Positions 11,662-18,080 of a stretch of 64,000 nucleotides of DNA are shown here, piece by piece (the stretch's first letter is position 1; each line of letters begins with the position of its first letter). A program made the position numbers and the translations under genes. The notes beneath the pieces were generated by a model. The model was not told the DNA's origin, did not search any database, and worked only from the letters and a program-made list of their open reading frames with translations. The DNA is from Mesotoga prima MesG1.Ag.4.2 (GTDB taxonomy: Bacteria; Thermotogota; Thermotogae; Petrotogales; Kosmotogaceae), in contig NC_017934.1 of assembly GCF_000147715.2 (NCBI RefSeq), positions 2,108,001 to 2,172,000 on the forward strand. Reading direction: 5' to 3'.

Positions 11662-13128
11662 TTACCTGTTGTTAAATAAGAATACCCAGGCAGCAGCGTC
11701 TTCGCCGTTGATCTTCCCGTCCTTGGGGAAGGAAATGTCGCAAGCGGTTATGTCGTCTGCTTCCGTAGAACCGATCTTTTCAACTAGATATTCGAAATCC
11801 TTCGTATCAACAACGCCATCGCTATTGACGTCAAGATCGTCACCTTCGTGATGAGCGAGATCATCGAATATTGGCAGGTACATCTCTCTTTTTTCAATTT
11901 CCCAGAAGCCCAGCTGCCCACTTTCATATTGTTCTTCACTGATAGCCGGAATCACGAAGTAACCACCATCTCCCCAGTCATAGGCCCAGGAGTTCTTTAT
12001 TATCCAGAACGTGGTGGTTGTGAAAATCGGTGAGGCCGCCTGTGTTGGATCGACATATGTGTAGCTTTCAATCTCTTCGTCCAGAATAGGAGTTGCATCT
12101 GGATTTGTCTTGCCAGCTAGAATAATATCGTCGAGATCTGTGGCACTTGCCCATCCGACTAGAGTAACTGCATGTCCGCCCGTACTATAATCTCCTTCTA
12201 CTGGAGAATATATACCCTTTGAATAGTAGTTGAAACTATACGGAACTGAGAAAGAGACGGCAAGAGATCCATAATCTGAAAGCGCTGTCTTGATCATGTT
12301 CAAATAGTCTTCATAGCTGTACCCTAGCTCAGCTGCCGATGTGGATGGAGGGATCATAACGGTTCGGGACGACTTCAACAGTGGAGCATCGTAGGCAGAT
12401 GGAGGCAGAGGAATCTCCTCCCTAGCATCAATATAGACTTCTGAGAATGGAGCATACTGTTCTTCCATCATCCCATACCTTATGAGATTGTACATTGCAA
12501 AGTAACTGTTTCCACCCTCAAGACTGTTCTTATCCTGAACATAACTGTCTGGTGAAAAACTGTAGATATCCCAGTCTATGTTGTGATAAGTTCCCCATCG
12601 TTCCGAATAATCGAAGGTGTTATCAACGTTGCCGTTCATTCCGAAAGACTGCACCGCCAAAGCGCTCTCAAAAGAGCCCACAGTGGCAAAAGACCAGCAG
12701 CTTCCATGAATGAACTGATCTCTTATAGGTTCGAGTCTTACAAAACTGCTCTCGGCTACTACGCGAGGTTCCAGAAGCACGAAAGTCGACATCATAAGAT
12801 CATCAGTAGTTGTCATTCCCTGTATAGAGAATTCATCCATCTCTTCTATGTATGCCAACCTCAAATACTCGATGAATCTCTCACGCACTTCATCTGGAAG
12901 GTCTATGTAGCTATTGAGTTTCTCGAAAATCACTTCTACGTCACCAATGTTAGCTGTCTCCAGCTTTGCAACGAAGCTCTCTTCTAGATCTGCTTTCCAG
13001 CTAAGATTCATGCTTGATATCGCCGAGTTGATTTCCGCCTCTATGGATGCTACCTGAGTTGCAACGTTAGCAGTTGCAAACGTGTATAAGAACAAAACCG
13101 AAAGTAATACTACCAATATTTTCTTCAT
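11662..13128 (-). CDS. Secreted papain-like cysteine protease with C-terminal dockerin-like domain
   Basis: A 488-residue exported protease. ATG 13128 is six bases from GGGGGG at 13135-13140 and starts a signal peptide (1-20, FATANVA). Residues 25-125 form a helical propeptide-like region. The C1A catalytic core follows: oxyanion Gln138 and Cys144 in DQFIHGSCWSFA, His319 in GGHAVTLVGW and Asn379 in WIIKNSWAYDWGDGGYF. Residues 430-488 look like a type I dockerin: calcium loop 1 is D433-V-N-S-D437-G-V-V-D441-T-K-D444, and loop 2 ends KDGKINGEDA (470-479) preceded by ACD with a two-residue insertion. It lies 13 bases behind a lipoprotein with a cohesin-like domain, suggesting a tethered surface protease (inference). 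Confidence 0.88.
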   Translation of the reverse strand: MKKILVVLLSVLFLYTFATANVATQVASIEAEINSAISSMNLSWKADLEESFVAKLETANIGDVEVIFEKLNSYIDLPDEVRERFIEYLRLAYIEEMDEFSIQGMTTTDDLMMSTFVLLEPRVVAESSFVRLEPIRDQFIHGSCWSFATVGSFESALAVQSFGMNGNVDNTFDYSERWGTYHNIDWDIYSFSPDSYVQDKNSLEGGNSYFAMYNLIRYGMMEEQYAPFSEVYIDAREEIPLPPSAYDAPLLKSSRTVMIPPSTSAAELGYSYEDYLNMIKTALSDYGSLAVSFSVPYSFNYYSKGIYSPVEGDYSTGGHAVTLVGWASATDLDDIILAGKTNPDATPILDEEIESYTYVDPTQAASPIFTTTTFWIIKNSWAYDWGDGGYFVIPAISEEQYESGQLGFWEIEKREMYLPIFDDLAHHEGDDLDVNSDGVVDTKDFEYLVEKIGSTEADDITACDISFPKDGKINGEDAAAWVFLFNNR

Positions 13129-13141
13129 GGTCATCCCCCCT

Positions 13142-14482
13142 TTACTCCAAGAAGACAATCGGTTCGTGATCAACTATGAACCCGTCAACCGAACCATTGT
13201 CTACATCTCTGAAAGCGGGATTTGGTAAATCGGGATAAGTGCCGTACGTATCCCAGTAACCTTCATACGCCAGTCCCACGGCAATGAGTTCACCTTCGAA
13301 ATCTTCAGGAACCGAGAAAGTGAGAGTTGCGAAGACATCGTCGGCCGCTTCGGCTTCATCTACTCCGTTTAGGAAGGCTTTGTAAAGAGTAACGGCCTCA
13401 TCACTACTCTTGAATGTTCCAACATCCTTCAGACCTGCCATGAAGTTTCCAAATTCGACGCCTTCGAGAACCAAACCCTCGCTATTCCACAGAGAGAGTT
13501 GAACATATCTGACATCATACAGATCGGCAAAACTCGCAACATTTTCTGTCAAGACACTTACTGTAAACGAATCACCAGGTCCTATATCACCGTCGGGAGT
13601 AGAAAGGCTTATTATTGGTTTTTCATCTGAGTCATACCTCTCTCTCAACGCGAAGGCTTTGTAAGCTTCTCCGTAGTCGTTAAGCGTGTTTCCGAAAACG
13701 TGAGCTTCTACCCATCTCGCGTAAACTGTGTTAAGATCAAATCCCACTTCAGCAAACTTGTAGAACAAGACATATCCGCTGTAAGGACCTTCAACACCGG
13801 CATAGTATGCCCTTATCGATTTCTCGCCATACTCGAATCCATAAGGCACCCATAGCGTATCATAATCTATCAAATAACCAGGTAGATACACATATGTCTG
13901 AAGATCGGGCCTGTCATTTGGTATTTCTTCCCATGTGTCATACATGCCATCATCATCGGTGTCGAGCAGGTTGAGCCGCTTCCTTACCGTTACCTCTTCG
14001 GCAGGTAGAATTTCCTCTGAAGCAGTCTTGTAAAACCTGATACCGAAAGCCTCATCTTCGATATACTGGAAATAGTCGCTGTAGTCAAAGTACATTAATC
14101 CAGCTCCAGACTGGAAGAGCTCTCTCTTAAGATTCGTGGCTTTGAAAGAAATCGTCTCCTTCGATTGAGCACCCATCGAATCGGTTGCTACAACCTCTGC
14201 GACGTACTTCCCCTCTTCGTCGAGAGCGTACATCGCTTCACCGGTGTCGACTACAGAAAGAACTTCAGCCCCATTTCTGTAGAGCTTGAACTCAGAAGTT
14301 ACTTCTGTGTCATCAAAGTCAGTTATTTCCCACTCGAAAGTGACAAGCGTCATCGGAGCAATTTCCTGCCCTTCCGAAACGGAGCCTGTCAACGATATTA
14401 CCGGTGGATTGTTGATCTTAAAGCAGCCGGAGACAAATAGCATGAATCCCAGCAGAAGAGTAATCAACAACGTTTTCTTCAT
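13142..14482 (-). CDS. Lipoprotein with Ig/PKD-like and cohesin-like domains
   Basis: A 446-residue lipoprotein: lipobox FVSG-Cys20 after a hydrophobic signal. Residues 27-117 look like an Ig/PKD module (PPVISLTGSVSEGQEI, TFEWEITDFDD, GKYVAEVVATDSMGA). Residues 118-287 are a middle region with one calcium-loop-like stretch DTDDDGMYD. Residues 288-446 resemble a cohesin: PIISLSTPDGDIGPGDSF, then FTVSVLTENV, LYDVRYVQLSL, LEGVEFGNFM, and DDVFATLTFSVPEDF, in the order and spacing of cohesin strands, then a C-terminal VDNGSVDGF. RBS AGGGGG lies seven bases before ATG 14482. The following gene encodes a dockerin-bearing protease, which supports the cohesin call. Domain assignment needs a profile search. 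Confidence 0.75.
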   Translation of the reverse strand: MKKTLLITLLLGFMLFVSGCFKINNPPVISLTGSVSEGQEIAPMTLVTFEWEITDFDDTEVTSEFKLYRNGAEVLSVVDTGEAMYALDEEGKYVAEVVATDSMGAQSKETISFKATNLKRELFQSGAGLMYFDYSDYFQYIEDEAFGIRFYKTASEEILPAEEVTVRKRLNLLDTDDDGMYDTWEEIPNDRPDLQTYVYLPGYLIDYDTLWVPYGFEYGEKSIRAYYAGVEGPYSGYVLFYKFAEVGFDLNTVYARWVEAHVFGNTLNDYGEAYKAFALRERYDSDEKPIISLSTPDGDIGPGDSFTVSVLTENVASFADLYDVRYVQLSLWNSEGLVLEGVEFGNFMAGLKDVGTFKSSDEAVTLYKAFLNGVDEAEAADDVFATLTFSVPEDFEGELIAVGLAYEGYWDTYGTYPDLPNPAFRDVDNGSVDGFIVDHEPIVFLE

Positions 14483-14799: not shown

Positions 14800-17175
14800 A
14801 TGTACGATTTCAGGGCGATCGAAAAGAAATGGCAGGAATATTACGCTAAGGAGAAACCATTCAATATAGACCTTGAAAAGGCCGAACGACCATTCTACAA
14901 CCTCATGATGTTTCCCTATCCCTCCGCAGCGGGGCTTCACATAGGAAATATGTTTTCCTTCATAGGTTCGGATGTATATGGAAGGTTCATGAAACTGAAG
15001 GGCTATGATGTATTTGAACCGATCGGCTTCGATGCCTTTGGAATTCACAGCGAGAACTACGCTTTGAAAGTTGGGAAACATCCCGCAGAACTCACCCCAA
15101 AGAGCATAGAGTATTTCAGAGAAGAGCAGCTGAAAAAGATTGGAAATATCTTCGATTGGAACAGCGAAGCGATTACCTCCTCTCCAGAGTACTACAAGTG
15201 GACGCAGTGGATATTCATACAGTTATTCAAGAATGGACTTGCAGAAAAGCGCTCTTCAAATGTGAACTGGTGTCCATCGTGCAAAACGGTGCTTGCTGAT
15301 GAACAGGTTATCGATGGCCGTTGTGAACGGTGCAACAGCGAAGTTGAGAAGCGTGAGATGAGTCAGTGGTTCTTCAAGATCACAGAATACGCAGAGAAGC
15401 TGCTGTCTAACCTGGAGAAGCTTGACTGGACCGATACGACCAAAAATCTTCAGCGGGCCTGGATAGGCAAATCCTCCGGAGCTACGATCTCTTTTGAAGT
15501 ATCCGGAATGAATGAGAAGATAGATGTTTTTACAACCCGTCCAGATACGATATTTGGAGTAACTTACATAGTTGTTGCTCCTGAATATGGTCTGGTCAGT
15601 AAGCTAATCACGCCCTCAACACTACAGGCCTTTGAAAACTTCAAAGAAGAAGTCAAGAACATGGATCTTGCCACGAGAACATCTATTTCGCGCCCCAAGA
15701 ATGGAATATTCACCGGATCTTACGCCGTTCACCCTCTTACAGGTGAGGAGCTTCCAATATGGATAGGAGATTACGTTCTGGCAGAATACGGAACGGGCGC
15801 TGTTATGGCCGTCCCGGCACACGACGAGAGAGATTATGTCTTTGCGAAGAAGTATGGACTGGAGATAAAACAGGTTATCGAATGTGATCCCTCACAGTTG
15901 CCCTATACTGAGAAGGGAAAGATGATCAACAGCGGAAAGTATTCGGACATGCTCAGCGCTGACTTCATCGAGAGGATAGATGAAGTGAGCGAGAGTATAA
16001 AGGGTTCGGTAAACTACCACCTTCATGATTGGTGCATCTCGAGGCAACGCTATTGGGGTCCGCCAATTCCGATTGTGTACTGTGATAAGTGTGGAACGAT
16101 TCCGGTGCCTGAAGATCAGTTGCCGGTAACGCTACCAAATACCGATGATTACATACCGGACGGAAGTGGGAAGTCTCCTTTGGCAAAGAATGAAGAGTTT
16201 GTCAACACGATTTGCCCTGTTTGCGGTGGACCGGCTAGACGAGAGACCGATGTATCCGACAATTTCCTTGATTCGGCTTGGTACTATCTGAGATACCTCT
16301 CACCGAACGATAACAGTGCACCTTTTGATGATGGGCTGGTTGAAAAGTGGTGCCCGGTCGATATGTATATAGGGGGAAATGAACACGCTACCCTGCACCT
16401 CATGTACTCGAGATTTCTTTCAATGGCACTTCACGATATGGGTTTTCTTCCTTTTGAAGAGCCGTTCACCTCATTCAGAGGTCACGGACTCATAATTAAG
16501 GACGGCGAGAAGATGTCGAAGTCCAAGGGCAACATTGTCAATCCAAACGAATATTTTGAGAGCCATGGAGTAGATACCCTCAGGACATATCTGATGTTCA
16601 TGGGTACGTTTCTTGAAGGAGGAGACTTCAGGGACAGCGGGATGGACGCTATGAGGAGGTTTCTCAATCGTGTATGGGACATCGCTACTATGCCCGAAGG
16701 GAGAAGTTCTACCGAGTTGAAGATAAAGATGTCAGAGACTGTAGAGAAAGTAGATTATTCAGTCAAGAACATCAAGCCGAACACGGCAATTGCCGCTATC
16801 ATGGAGTTTGTTAATGAAGCTTCGAAAGAGGTTTCTATTGAAAGACAGCTTGTCATAGATATGGCAAAGCTTCTTTCTCCATTTGCACCGTTTGTCTGTG
16901 AAGAGATTTACAGTATGAAGGGTGGAAAGAAGAAGACAATTCTTGACGATGGATTCCCATATGGTTATGAGAAGTACGCATCTATGGCCAAGACGGAATT
17001 GCCTGTCCAAATCACTGGAAAGATGAGGGGGAAAGTCGTGCTTCCTCAGAACGCATCCCAGGAAGAGGCGATGGAAGCAGTAATGGCTGATGAAAAGCTC
17101 TCAAAAATGCTTGAAGGAAAGTCAATAAGAAAGATCATCTACGTTCAAGACAAGATAATCAACATAATTATTTGA
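14800..17175 (+). CDS. leuS: Leucyl-tRNA synthetase
   Basis: A 791-residue class I aminoacyl-tRNA synthetase charging tRNA-Leu. The HIGH motif is H47-I-G-N50 in AAGLHIGN and the KMSKS loop is residues 571-575 in GEKMSKSKGN. A zinc knuckle with Cys158, Cys161, Cys175 and Cys178 precedes the CP1 editing domain (about 220-400, with TTRPDTIFGVTY and the GTGAVMAVPAHDERD editing block). A second C..C pair lies near 425-430 and 470. It is somewhat shorter than typical bacterial LeuRS of 810-870 residues because the C-terminal region is compact. ATG 14800 follows GGAGGT at 14789-14794. It is a stand-alone gene. Confidence 0.97.
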   Translation: MYDFRAIEKKWQEYYAKEKPFNIDLEKAERPFYNLMMFPYPSAAGLHIGNMFSFIGSDVYGRFMKLKGYDVFEPIGFDAFGIHSENYALKVGKHPAELTPKSIEYFREEQLKKIGNIFDWNSEAITSSPEYYKWTQWIFIQLFKNGLAEKRSSNVNWCPSCKTVLADEQVIDGRCERCNSEVEKREMSQWFFKITEYAEKLLSNLEKLDWTDTTKNLQRAWIGKSSGATISFEVSGMNEKIDVFTTRPDTIFGVTYIVVAPEYGLVSKLITPSTLQAFENFKEEVKNMDLATRTSISRPKNGIFTGSYAVHPLTGEELPIWIGDYVLAEYGTGAVMAVPAHDERDYVFAKKYGLEIKQVIECDPSQLPYTEKGKMINSGKYSDMLSADFIERIDEVSESIKGSVNYHLHDWCISRQRYWGPPIPIVYCDKCGTIPVPEDQLPVTLPNTDDYIPDGSGKSPLAKNEEFVNTICPVCGGPARRETDVSDNFLDSAWYYLRYLSPNDNSAPFDDGLVEKWCPVDMYIGGNEHATLHLMYSRFLSMALHDMGFLPFEEPFTSFRGHGLIIKDGEKMSKSKGNIVNPNEYFESHGVDTLRTYLMFMGTFLEGGDFRDSGMDAMRRFLNRVWDIATMPEGRSSTELKIKMSETVEKVDYSVKNIKPNTAIAAIMEFVNEASKEVSIERQLVIDMAKLLSPFAPFVCEEIYSMKGGKKKTILDDGFPYGYEKYASMAKTELPVQITGKMRGKVVLPQNASQEEAMEAVMADEKLSKMLEGKSIRKIIYVQDKIINIII

Positions 17176-17925
17176 ACGCAGTAAACAATATTCTGTTCTG
17201 AATACAAAAATGGAGAGCCAGTTGCTCTCCATTGTCTTCCATAGATTCATCTTCATTTTGATAAAGGCTTTCGCGAAACAAAAATACTGGTATTCCCGTA
17301 TCTGCATGGTGTCTTACGAGCCTGAACCCAGCCTTTTCTAGAACTGCTTGTTGATTATCTATGGAAAGTGGCAGATCGAAGTGATAGAAACCGTCAGGTA
17401 AATTACTCTCGCTTTTCAGAGACCCGTATCTGTTGAGCAACTCCATCTCCTCAATCGCAGTACCGACAACGTAATCGGCTTCGATATATGTTCTATTACC
17501 CCCCGGACTGCGGAAAACCTTCCTGTAGAGCGATAGCTTTTGTTCTTGTCCGAAGTGGTGCATCGATTGAACCGAAATGGCAACGTCGAATCCCTCCACC
17601 GGCAATTCGACTTCGAAGTAGGAACCGGCAACAAATTCGTGGTTCCCTTCTTGCCTTCGTATTTGCTTCTAAGAATTTCGAGCATCTTCTCTGATAGGTC
17701 GATGCCGGTTACCCTGGCCGTGGAATTCAATTTGAATATCTCGTCAATTTCCAGGCCCGTCCCGCAACCGAGATAAAGTATCCTGATTCCTGTAGTAACT
17801 GGAACTAGCCTTGCCATTTCTCCGTAGAATGCAGCGGATTCCTTGACATTGTTTTTCATGTGGGATTCGCATGAATCGGCTCCTCTATCGAAGAAAGCTC
17901 TCATTGTTTCCCAGTAACGGCTCAT
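17168..17925 (-). pseudogene. Class I SAM methyltransferase, frameshifted
   Basis: Two overlapping minus-strand frames together make one methyltransferase. The N-terminal part from ATG 17925 has motif I ILYLGCGTGLEIDEI and the acidic motif II VTGIDLSEKML. Around 17645-17655 the meaningful frame changes: the sequence after KYEGKKG continues in another frame as HEFVAGSYFEVELPVEGFDVAISVQSMHHF, which is motif III/IV of the family. A one-base indel in that stretch would restore an approximately 250-residue enzyme. The C-terminal frame also reads through the terminator stem at 17206-17231, so a second lesion near the end is possible. It could also be an assembly error. Substrate unknown. Confidence 0.75.
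17206..17231 (-). terminator. Terminator for the methyltransferase gene
   Basis: On the minus strand GGAGAGC-AACTG-GCTCTCC is followed by ATTTTTG. The convergent leuS gene stops at 17175 just beyond. The stem lies inside the 3' end of the methyltransferase frame, which is abnormal. Confidence 0.7.
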
Positions 17926-18080
17926 TTTCTCTCGCTCCGTTTTTTTGCTTCTTTGGCAAGTCAATCTACTTTCTTATATTATAGAAGTGCCGAACGAGTA
18001 TGAAGCCGAGTTTGCCGTAACTATTAAGGTGGGGGTTTTCACGGAAGTCTAAATGAGCTTTTGCCCGAAAGGAGACAACA

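Follow-up and report, generated by a model that had tools for sequence, protein, structure and literature searches.

Two adjacent genes of Mesotoga prima MesG1.Ag.4.2 were found to encode a lipoprotein with a cohesin-like C-terminal domain and a secreted papain-family protease with a C-terminal dockerin. Judged from their sequences, the two genes quite probably encode a dedicated 1:1 calcium-dependent cohesin-dockerin tether, which would hold the cysteine protease in place of direct lipid anchoring. The pair lies on the minus strand of the window, i.e., the whole stretch of 64,000 nucleotides of contig NC_017934.1 that was analyzed, and the same cassette was present in 26 of 103 Thermotogota genomes belonging to seven families, with the lipoprotein gene first wherever one contig holds both. 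A tether of this kind, on the outer surface, had been suggested in a preliminary description of the window, and this interpretation is partly supported in our study. The outer surface is a possible location, and the cohesin-dockerin pair and the idea of a dedicated tether are well supported, by profile matches among the relatives, strict pairing of the genes, their joint replacement and loss, and the alternation of lipobox and dockerin among the proteases.

The two genes and their domains

The lipoprotein gene (P0002; 13142..14482; 446 amino acids) is the upstream gene of the cassette and is followed by the protease gene (P0001; 11662..13128; 488 amino acids); all the features given below are on the minus strand as well. 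The lipoprotein stop and the protease ATG are separated by 13 bases (13129..13141), and the coordinates and spacing of the preliminary description were correct. The gap contained the ribosome-binding stretch GGGGGAT of the protease, and its length ranged between -4 and +15 among the relatives. The true start of the protease is the ATG at 13128, whereas the 503-amino-acid version of the open reading frame starts at an upstream TTG.

The lipoprotein contained a signal peptide with the lipobox LFVSGC (14423..14482), and by this signal peptide and the VSGC lipobox, which had been described before, it is classed as a bacterial lipoprotein with predicted lipidation at Cys20. The lipobox was present in all N-terminally complete relatives; the open reading frame of the G005 relative has a false start upstream of the true one. 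The region of about residues 24–117 (14132..14413) is a putative Ig/PKD-like domain, as suggested by weak Pfam PKD/Big_9 matches in the G028 orthologue. The middle region, from residue 118 to 280 (13643..14131), showed no Pfam match. A calcium-loop/TSP3-like motif, DTDDDGMYDTWE, was found in this middle region at residues 174–185 (13928–13963), outside the cohesin-like domain, and was present in relatives too. The cohesin-like domain comprises residues 281–446 (13145..13642), and its family profile was found in 27 of the 103 genomes.

The protease contained a plain signal peptide devoid of a lipobox. It is assigned to the papain family C1A (PF00112) by its Peptidase_C1 profile match (4.1e-20) and by the active-site residues Q138, C144, H319, and N379, so that the earlier claim of a secreted C1A protease was borne out. 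The four residues were conserved in all the relatives that reach those columns; catalytic Cys144 (12697..12699) was a cysteine in each of them, and His319 (12172..12174) and Asn379 (11992..11994) were invariant in 35 proteins.

The dockerin module was found at residues 428–488 (11665..11847). Its match to Pfam Dockerin_1 (PF00404; cut-off 22.9 bits) was just under the cut-off by hmmscan (21.7 bits, E 2.3e-4) and over it in the genome search (25.2 bits), and the scores of the relatives reached 36.9 bits. A profile of 19 dockerins of the family gave solved dockerins as the top PDB matches (2y3n_B, 4fl4_A, 2mte_A, and 1daq_A) at about 1e-7. Calcium loop 1, DVNSDGVVDTKD (residues 433–444; 11797..11832), is canonical and reads D433-VNSDGVVDTK-D444; its ligands were conserved throughout the family in alignment A5, which contained 19 rows (the G027 row is short by one residue outside the loops, with no effect on this result). 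Calcium loop 2, DISFPKDGKINGED (residues 464–477; 11698..11739), reads D464-ISFPKDGKINGE-D477 and contained a two-residue insertion. In the same alignment, an insertion of this PKDG type was present in every lineage except G097/G099, where loop 2 is canonical, and the calcium ligands of loop 2 were lost in the group G017–G020. The insertion is thus present as was first described, but it is a trait of nearly the whole family and no peculiarity of this protein. The module has the two duplicated EF-hand-like calcium loops of a dockerin, each followed by a helix (residues 20–30 and 53–64 of a low-confidence model), and with the profile matches its identity as a dockerin is secure at the sequence level, as had been claimed. 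Since the two halves differ, a single binding mode would be expected, in contrast to the two modes of symmetric dockerins.

The domain at the C-terminus of the lipoprotein was more difficult to assign. When the whole lipoprotein was compared with Pfam, NCBIfam, and the PDB, neither a cohesin nor any other convincing match was found, and the cohesin signal emerged only at the level of the domain and of the family. For the last 166 residues, Cohesin was the sole Pfam family matched, weakly (12.9 bits, E 0.13; the cut-off of PF00963 is 24.1 bits). The upstream proteins of G005 (15.2 bits, 0.026), G042 (19.6 bits, 1.1e-3), and G080 (20.5 bits, 5.7e-4) matched the same profile positions, as did the divergent protein occupying this cassette position in G022, whose score was the only one above the cut-off (30 bits, 6.7e-7); most relatives of the domain showed no Pfam match. 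A profile built from 8 sequences of the subclade to which the window belongs, G022 excluded, gave a single PDB match up to E = 10, namely 4uyp_A (E 0.01), a cellulosomal cohesin of scaffoldin anchoring protein C. The all-lineage profile including G022 matched type II cohesins of ScaB (0.0027–0.03, with 3l8q at 0.0027), whereas without G022 (A7) the ScaB matches were gone and the best PDB matches were Ig-like tail proteins (0.008). A profile built without the G022 sequence failed to recover it, and therefore the clear Pfam match of G022 backs the domain of the window by cassette position alone. Comparisons by hhalign with small hand-made cohesin alignments were weak (best E 7.5e-4 in one set of comparisons, 0.0035–0.02 in another), and most, but not all, scored above the reversed and N-terminal controls. 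The AlphaFold model of the domain, built from the window sequence and one close relative (L002), had a pLDDT of 45 and gave no significant Foldseek match; the models of both domains were poor.

The claim of a cohesin therefore stood in part: the C-terminal domain is beta-rich, Cohesin is its only Pfam match and relatives match cohesin profiles, but the score of the window domain by itself was sub-threshold. The sequence case for a cohesin is fair but not closed, and genomic context closes most of the gap that it leaves, for the sole dockerin of the genome is encoded by the very next gene and the pair is kept in 26 genomes.

Pairing, replacement and loss in the Thermotogota

Of the 103 Thermotogota genomes, 27 contained the cohesin of this family and 29 the dockerin-protease; both were present in 26, the protease only in 3, the cohesin only in 1, and neither in 73 (Fisher 5.6e-20, uncorrected for kinship). 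The pairing of the two genes is thus beyond chance. All three protease-only genomes were cut by contig ends, and in G100 the halves of the cassette sit at two contig ends. In the contigs that hold both genes, the lipoprotein gene was always directly upstream of the dockerin-protease gene, and the genes flanking the cassette varied between families. General Pfam Cohesin matches in a scan of the phylum numbered 19, of which 3 were directly upstream of one of the about 29 dockerin-proteases, against a chance expectation of about 0.003. The window's genome contained one domain of this cohesin family and one Dockerin_1, in adjacent genes; a Pfam profile search found no further Dockerin_1 in this genome beyond the protease, which supports the proposed dedicated partner. 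In a mirror-tree test, cohesin and dockerin covaried no more than the two genes did as a whole (partial r 0.12).

In Mesotoga, the interval between ppa (inorganic pyrophosphatase-like) and leuS was found to contain one of two cassettes, in opposite orientations. The pair of the window was present in the window itself, G005, G007, and G009, and a distant pair was present in G001 and G003; the cohesins of the two pairs were 27% identical and the proteases 39–41%, and mixed pairs were not seen at this interval. The sole cohesin-only genome of the 103, G006, contained a decayed lineage-B pair next to leuS (L026 5575–7569), in which stop codons and frameshifts interrupt the lipoprotein and nothing but the signal peptide is left of the protease. 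The pair thus moves and decays as a unit.

The ppa-leuS interval also holds more lipobox-bearing proteins (L028 9989–14072, L026 1526–5574, and L025 1–3599), some of which are subtilases (Peptidase_S8) with fervidolysin-like prodomains, and it therefore resembles a hot spot for secreted proteases. Elsewhere in the window, two overlapping open reading frames (17168–17964, minus strand) appear to be a frameshifted SAM-dependent methyltransferase, an intact version of which, with 224 amino acids, was found in Mesotoga G007 (L030:12463–13137).

The C1A proteases of the sister clade were devoid of a dockerin and contained their own lipobox in seven of seven cases, whereas no strict lipobox was found among the 26 dockerin-proteases with a complete N-terminus, LLAC in G004b being a borderline case. 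A cohesin domain of this family was absent upstream of all seven, and those examined come after a propeller-bearing protein (Pfam-checked in two, L107 and L109). These C1A lipoproteins (L107–L111) resemble the window's protease in catalytic family and in predicted membrane attachment, but differ in that the protease has a lipobox of its own, lacks a dockerin, and comes after a propeller protein instead of a cohesin. The switch between lipobox and dockerin occurred once on the tree, so the alternation counts as one contrast and not as many. Its direction matches what a tether would predict, i.e., either the lipid on the enzyme, or the dockerin on the enzyme and the lipid on its partner. The upstream protein in L107–L111 (domains checked in L107 and L109) combines a BamB/PQQ-like propeller with carboxypeptidase-regulatory-like domains, which makes up another conserved protease pair. 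In G064, two lipoproteins (L105:2659–5415 and L106:1188–3914) combine a papain-type C1A domain with a clostripain domain (Peptidase_C11, Pfam-checked in L105) in one chain.

The proposed tether and its alternatives

In the proposed mechanism, both proteins would be exported, and the lipoprotein would be lipidated at Cys20 and thereby anchored in a membrane, with its C-terminal cohesin projecting beyond the Ig/PKD-like domain and the middle region. The dockerin of the protease would fold with two calcium ions and plug into the cohesin of its neighbour; a soluble, active protease would thus be retained at the cell, with one enzyme per anchor and no multi-cohesin scaffold. Such a tether would be the non-covalent counterpart of the direct lipidation of the dockerin-less sister proteases, and the cell-held cysteine protease may degrade or process extracellular protein. 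That the cassette is a phylum-wide, laterally exchanged plug-in module, whose private cohesin-dockerin pair may be released by a change in calcium or temperature so that the enzyme is either tethered or free, is a speculative and rather unlikely extension.

Each of three other readings is less likely than the dedicated tether. The C-terminal Ig-like domain of the lipoprotein may be an inhibitor or a folding partner of the protease (compare chagasin and staphostatin), with the dockerin as just a calcium stabiliser. Co-transcribed neighbouring inhibitors are known for papain-like proteases, the domain is beta-rich, and an enzyme and its inhibitor would also pair strictly; nevertheless, no inhibitor family was matched by the lipoprotein or by 18 relatives of its domain, among which the recurring family was Cohesin. 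An inhibitor would moreover be expected to track the catalytic domain and not the dockerin, whereas in the relatives without a dockerin the catalytic domain and active site are retained but no such domain lies upstream, and we consider this role improbable.

It is also unlikely that the dockerin binds another surface protein or a component of the toga while the neighbour binds something else, the adjacency reflecting a general habit of placing a lipoprotein before a protease. Having a lipoprotein gene upstream does not set the dockerin carriers apart, since the dockerin-less relatives too come after a large, mostly lipobox-bearing protein, but the type of the upstream protein changes together with the dockerin, and the window's genome offers neither a second dockerin nor a second domain of this cohesin family. 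The low scores of most individual cohesin-like domains, the contact of the A7 profile with Ig-like proteins, and the lost loop 2 ligands in G017–G020 would fit a generic Ig-like spacer and a vestigial calcium-binding tail with no mutual binding. This is very improbable in view of the loop 1 ligands conserved throughout, the solved dockerins matched at 1e-7, the cohesin matches at the same positions, and the pairing conserved over seven families.

Relation to known cohesin-dockerin systems

To our knowledge, research on cohesin-dockerin binding has dealt almost exclusively with its role in holding cellulosomes together. The pair described here is not a cellulosome, because it has no multi-cohesin scaffold partner; a cellulosome would need a scaffoldin with several cohesins and carbohydrate-active dockerin enzymes, and in the window's genome no second cohesin of this family and no second dockerin were found. 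As in the cellulosomal pairs (type I of CipA; type II/ScaB/ScaC of Acetivibrio), the cohesin is on an anchored protein, here by prediction, and a C-terminal calcium-loop dockerin is on a secreted enzyme. In contrast to them, there is one cohesin per anchor, a lipid instead of SLH/sortase attachment, and a protease instead of a cellulase, and the pair includes neither a scaffoldin nor a cellulose-binding module. Peptidases with a dockerin have been described in cellulosomes, namely RflaF_05439 of R. flavefaciens (NlpC/P60-like, bound by the cell-surface ScaE) and a subtilisin-like protease of C. thermocellum (PMC3573020). There, as proposed here, a peptidase is brought to the cell surface via a dockerin and a cohesin, but it belongs to another peptidase family and is one of 70–220 dockerin proteins on shared scaffolds, with no dedicated pair described. 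Cohesins and dockerins also occur in archaea and bacteria without cellulosomes (PMC9012536, citing Peer et al. 2009), with ANME archaea and Archaeoglobus as examples; the partners there are various and mostly unassigned, whereas here one enzyme type has a neighbouring partner across a phylum. Our literature search found no paper joining Mesotoga or Kosmotoga with dockerin, and the papers joining cohesin, dockerin, and Thermotogae are, by their titles, biomass or biogas studies. Cohesin-dockerin pairs outside cellulosomes and dockerin-proteases were thus already known, whereas the literature searched gave no dedicated lipoprotein-protease cassette across the Thermotogota. A C1A protein encoded on a Methanosarcina plasmid, followed as a lead, was set aside; it contained a lectin-like domain, and neither a dockerin nor a cohesin was found beside it by Pfam.

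If the proposed tether is real, a single cohesin and a single enzyme encoded by adjacent genes would be the simplest form of this interaction, present in many Thermotogota, and would give a clear job to non-cellulosomal cohesins and dockerins. The Thermotogota are a largely heat-loving bacterial phylum, and binding and design studies could then draw on about 26 pairs already matched by nature, many of which probably come from thermophiles. With the sister proteases, which have a lipid anchor of their own, covalent anchoring could be compared with the plug-in kind in a natural setting.

Very large cohesin proteins of other Thermotogota are a separate cohesin-dockerin system. They have about 1200–1650 amino acids, their cohesins match Pfam clearly, and some of the chains include a dockerin as well; they were found in L032–L039 and L041 (G038–G044 and G015), except for L034, which is the G022 cassette. 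Another lipoprotein, with a sub-threshold Pfam cohesin match of 22.4 bits, was found in Mesotoga G002 (L123:1–1007), away from the protease pair.
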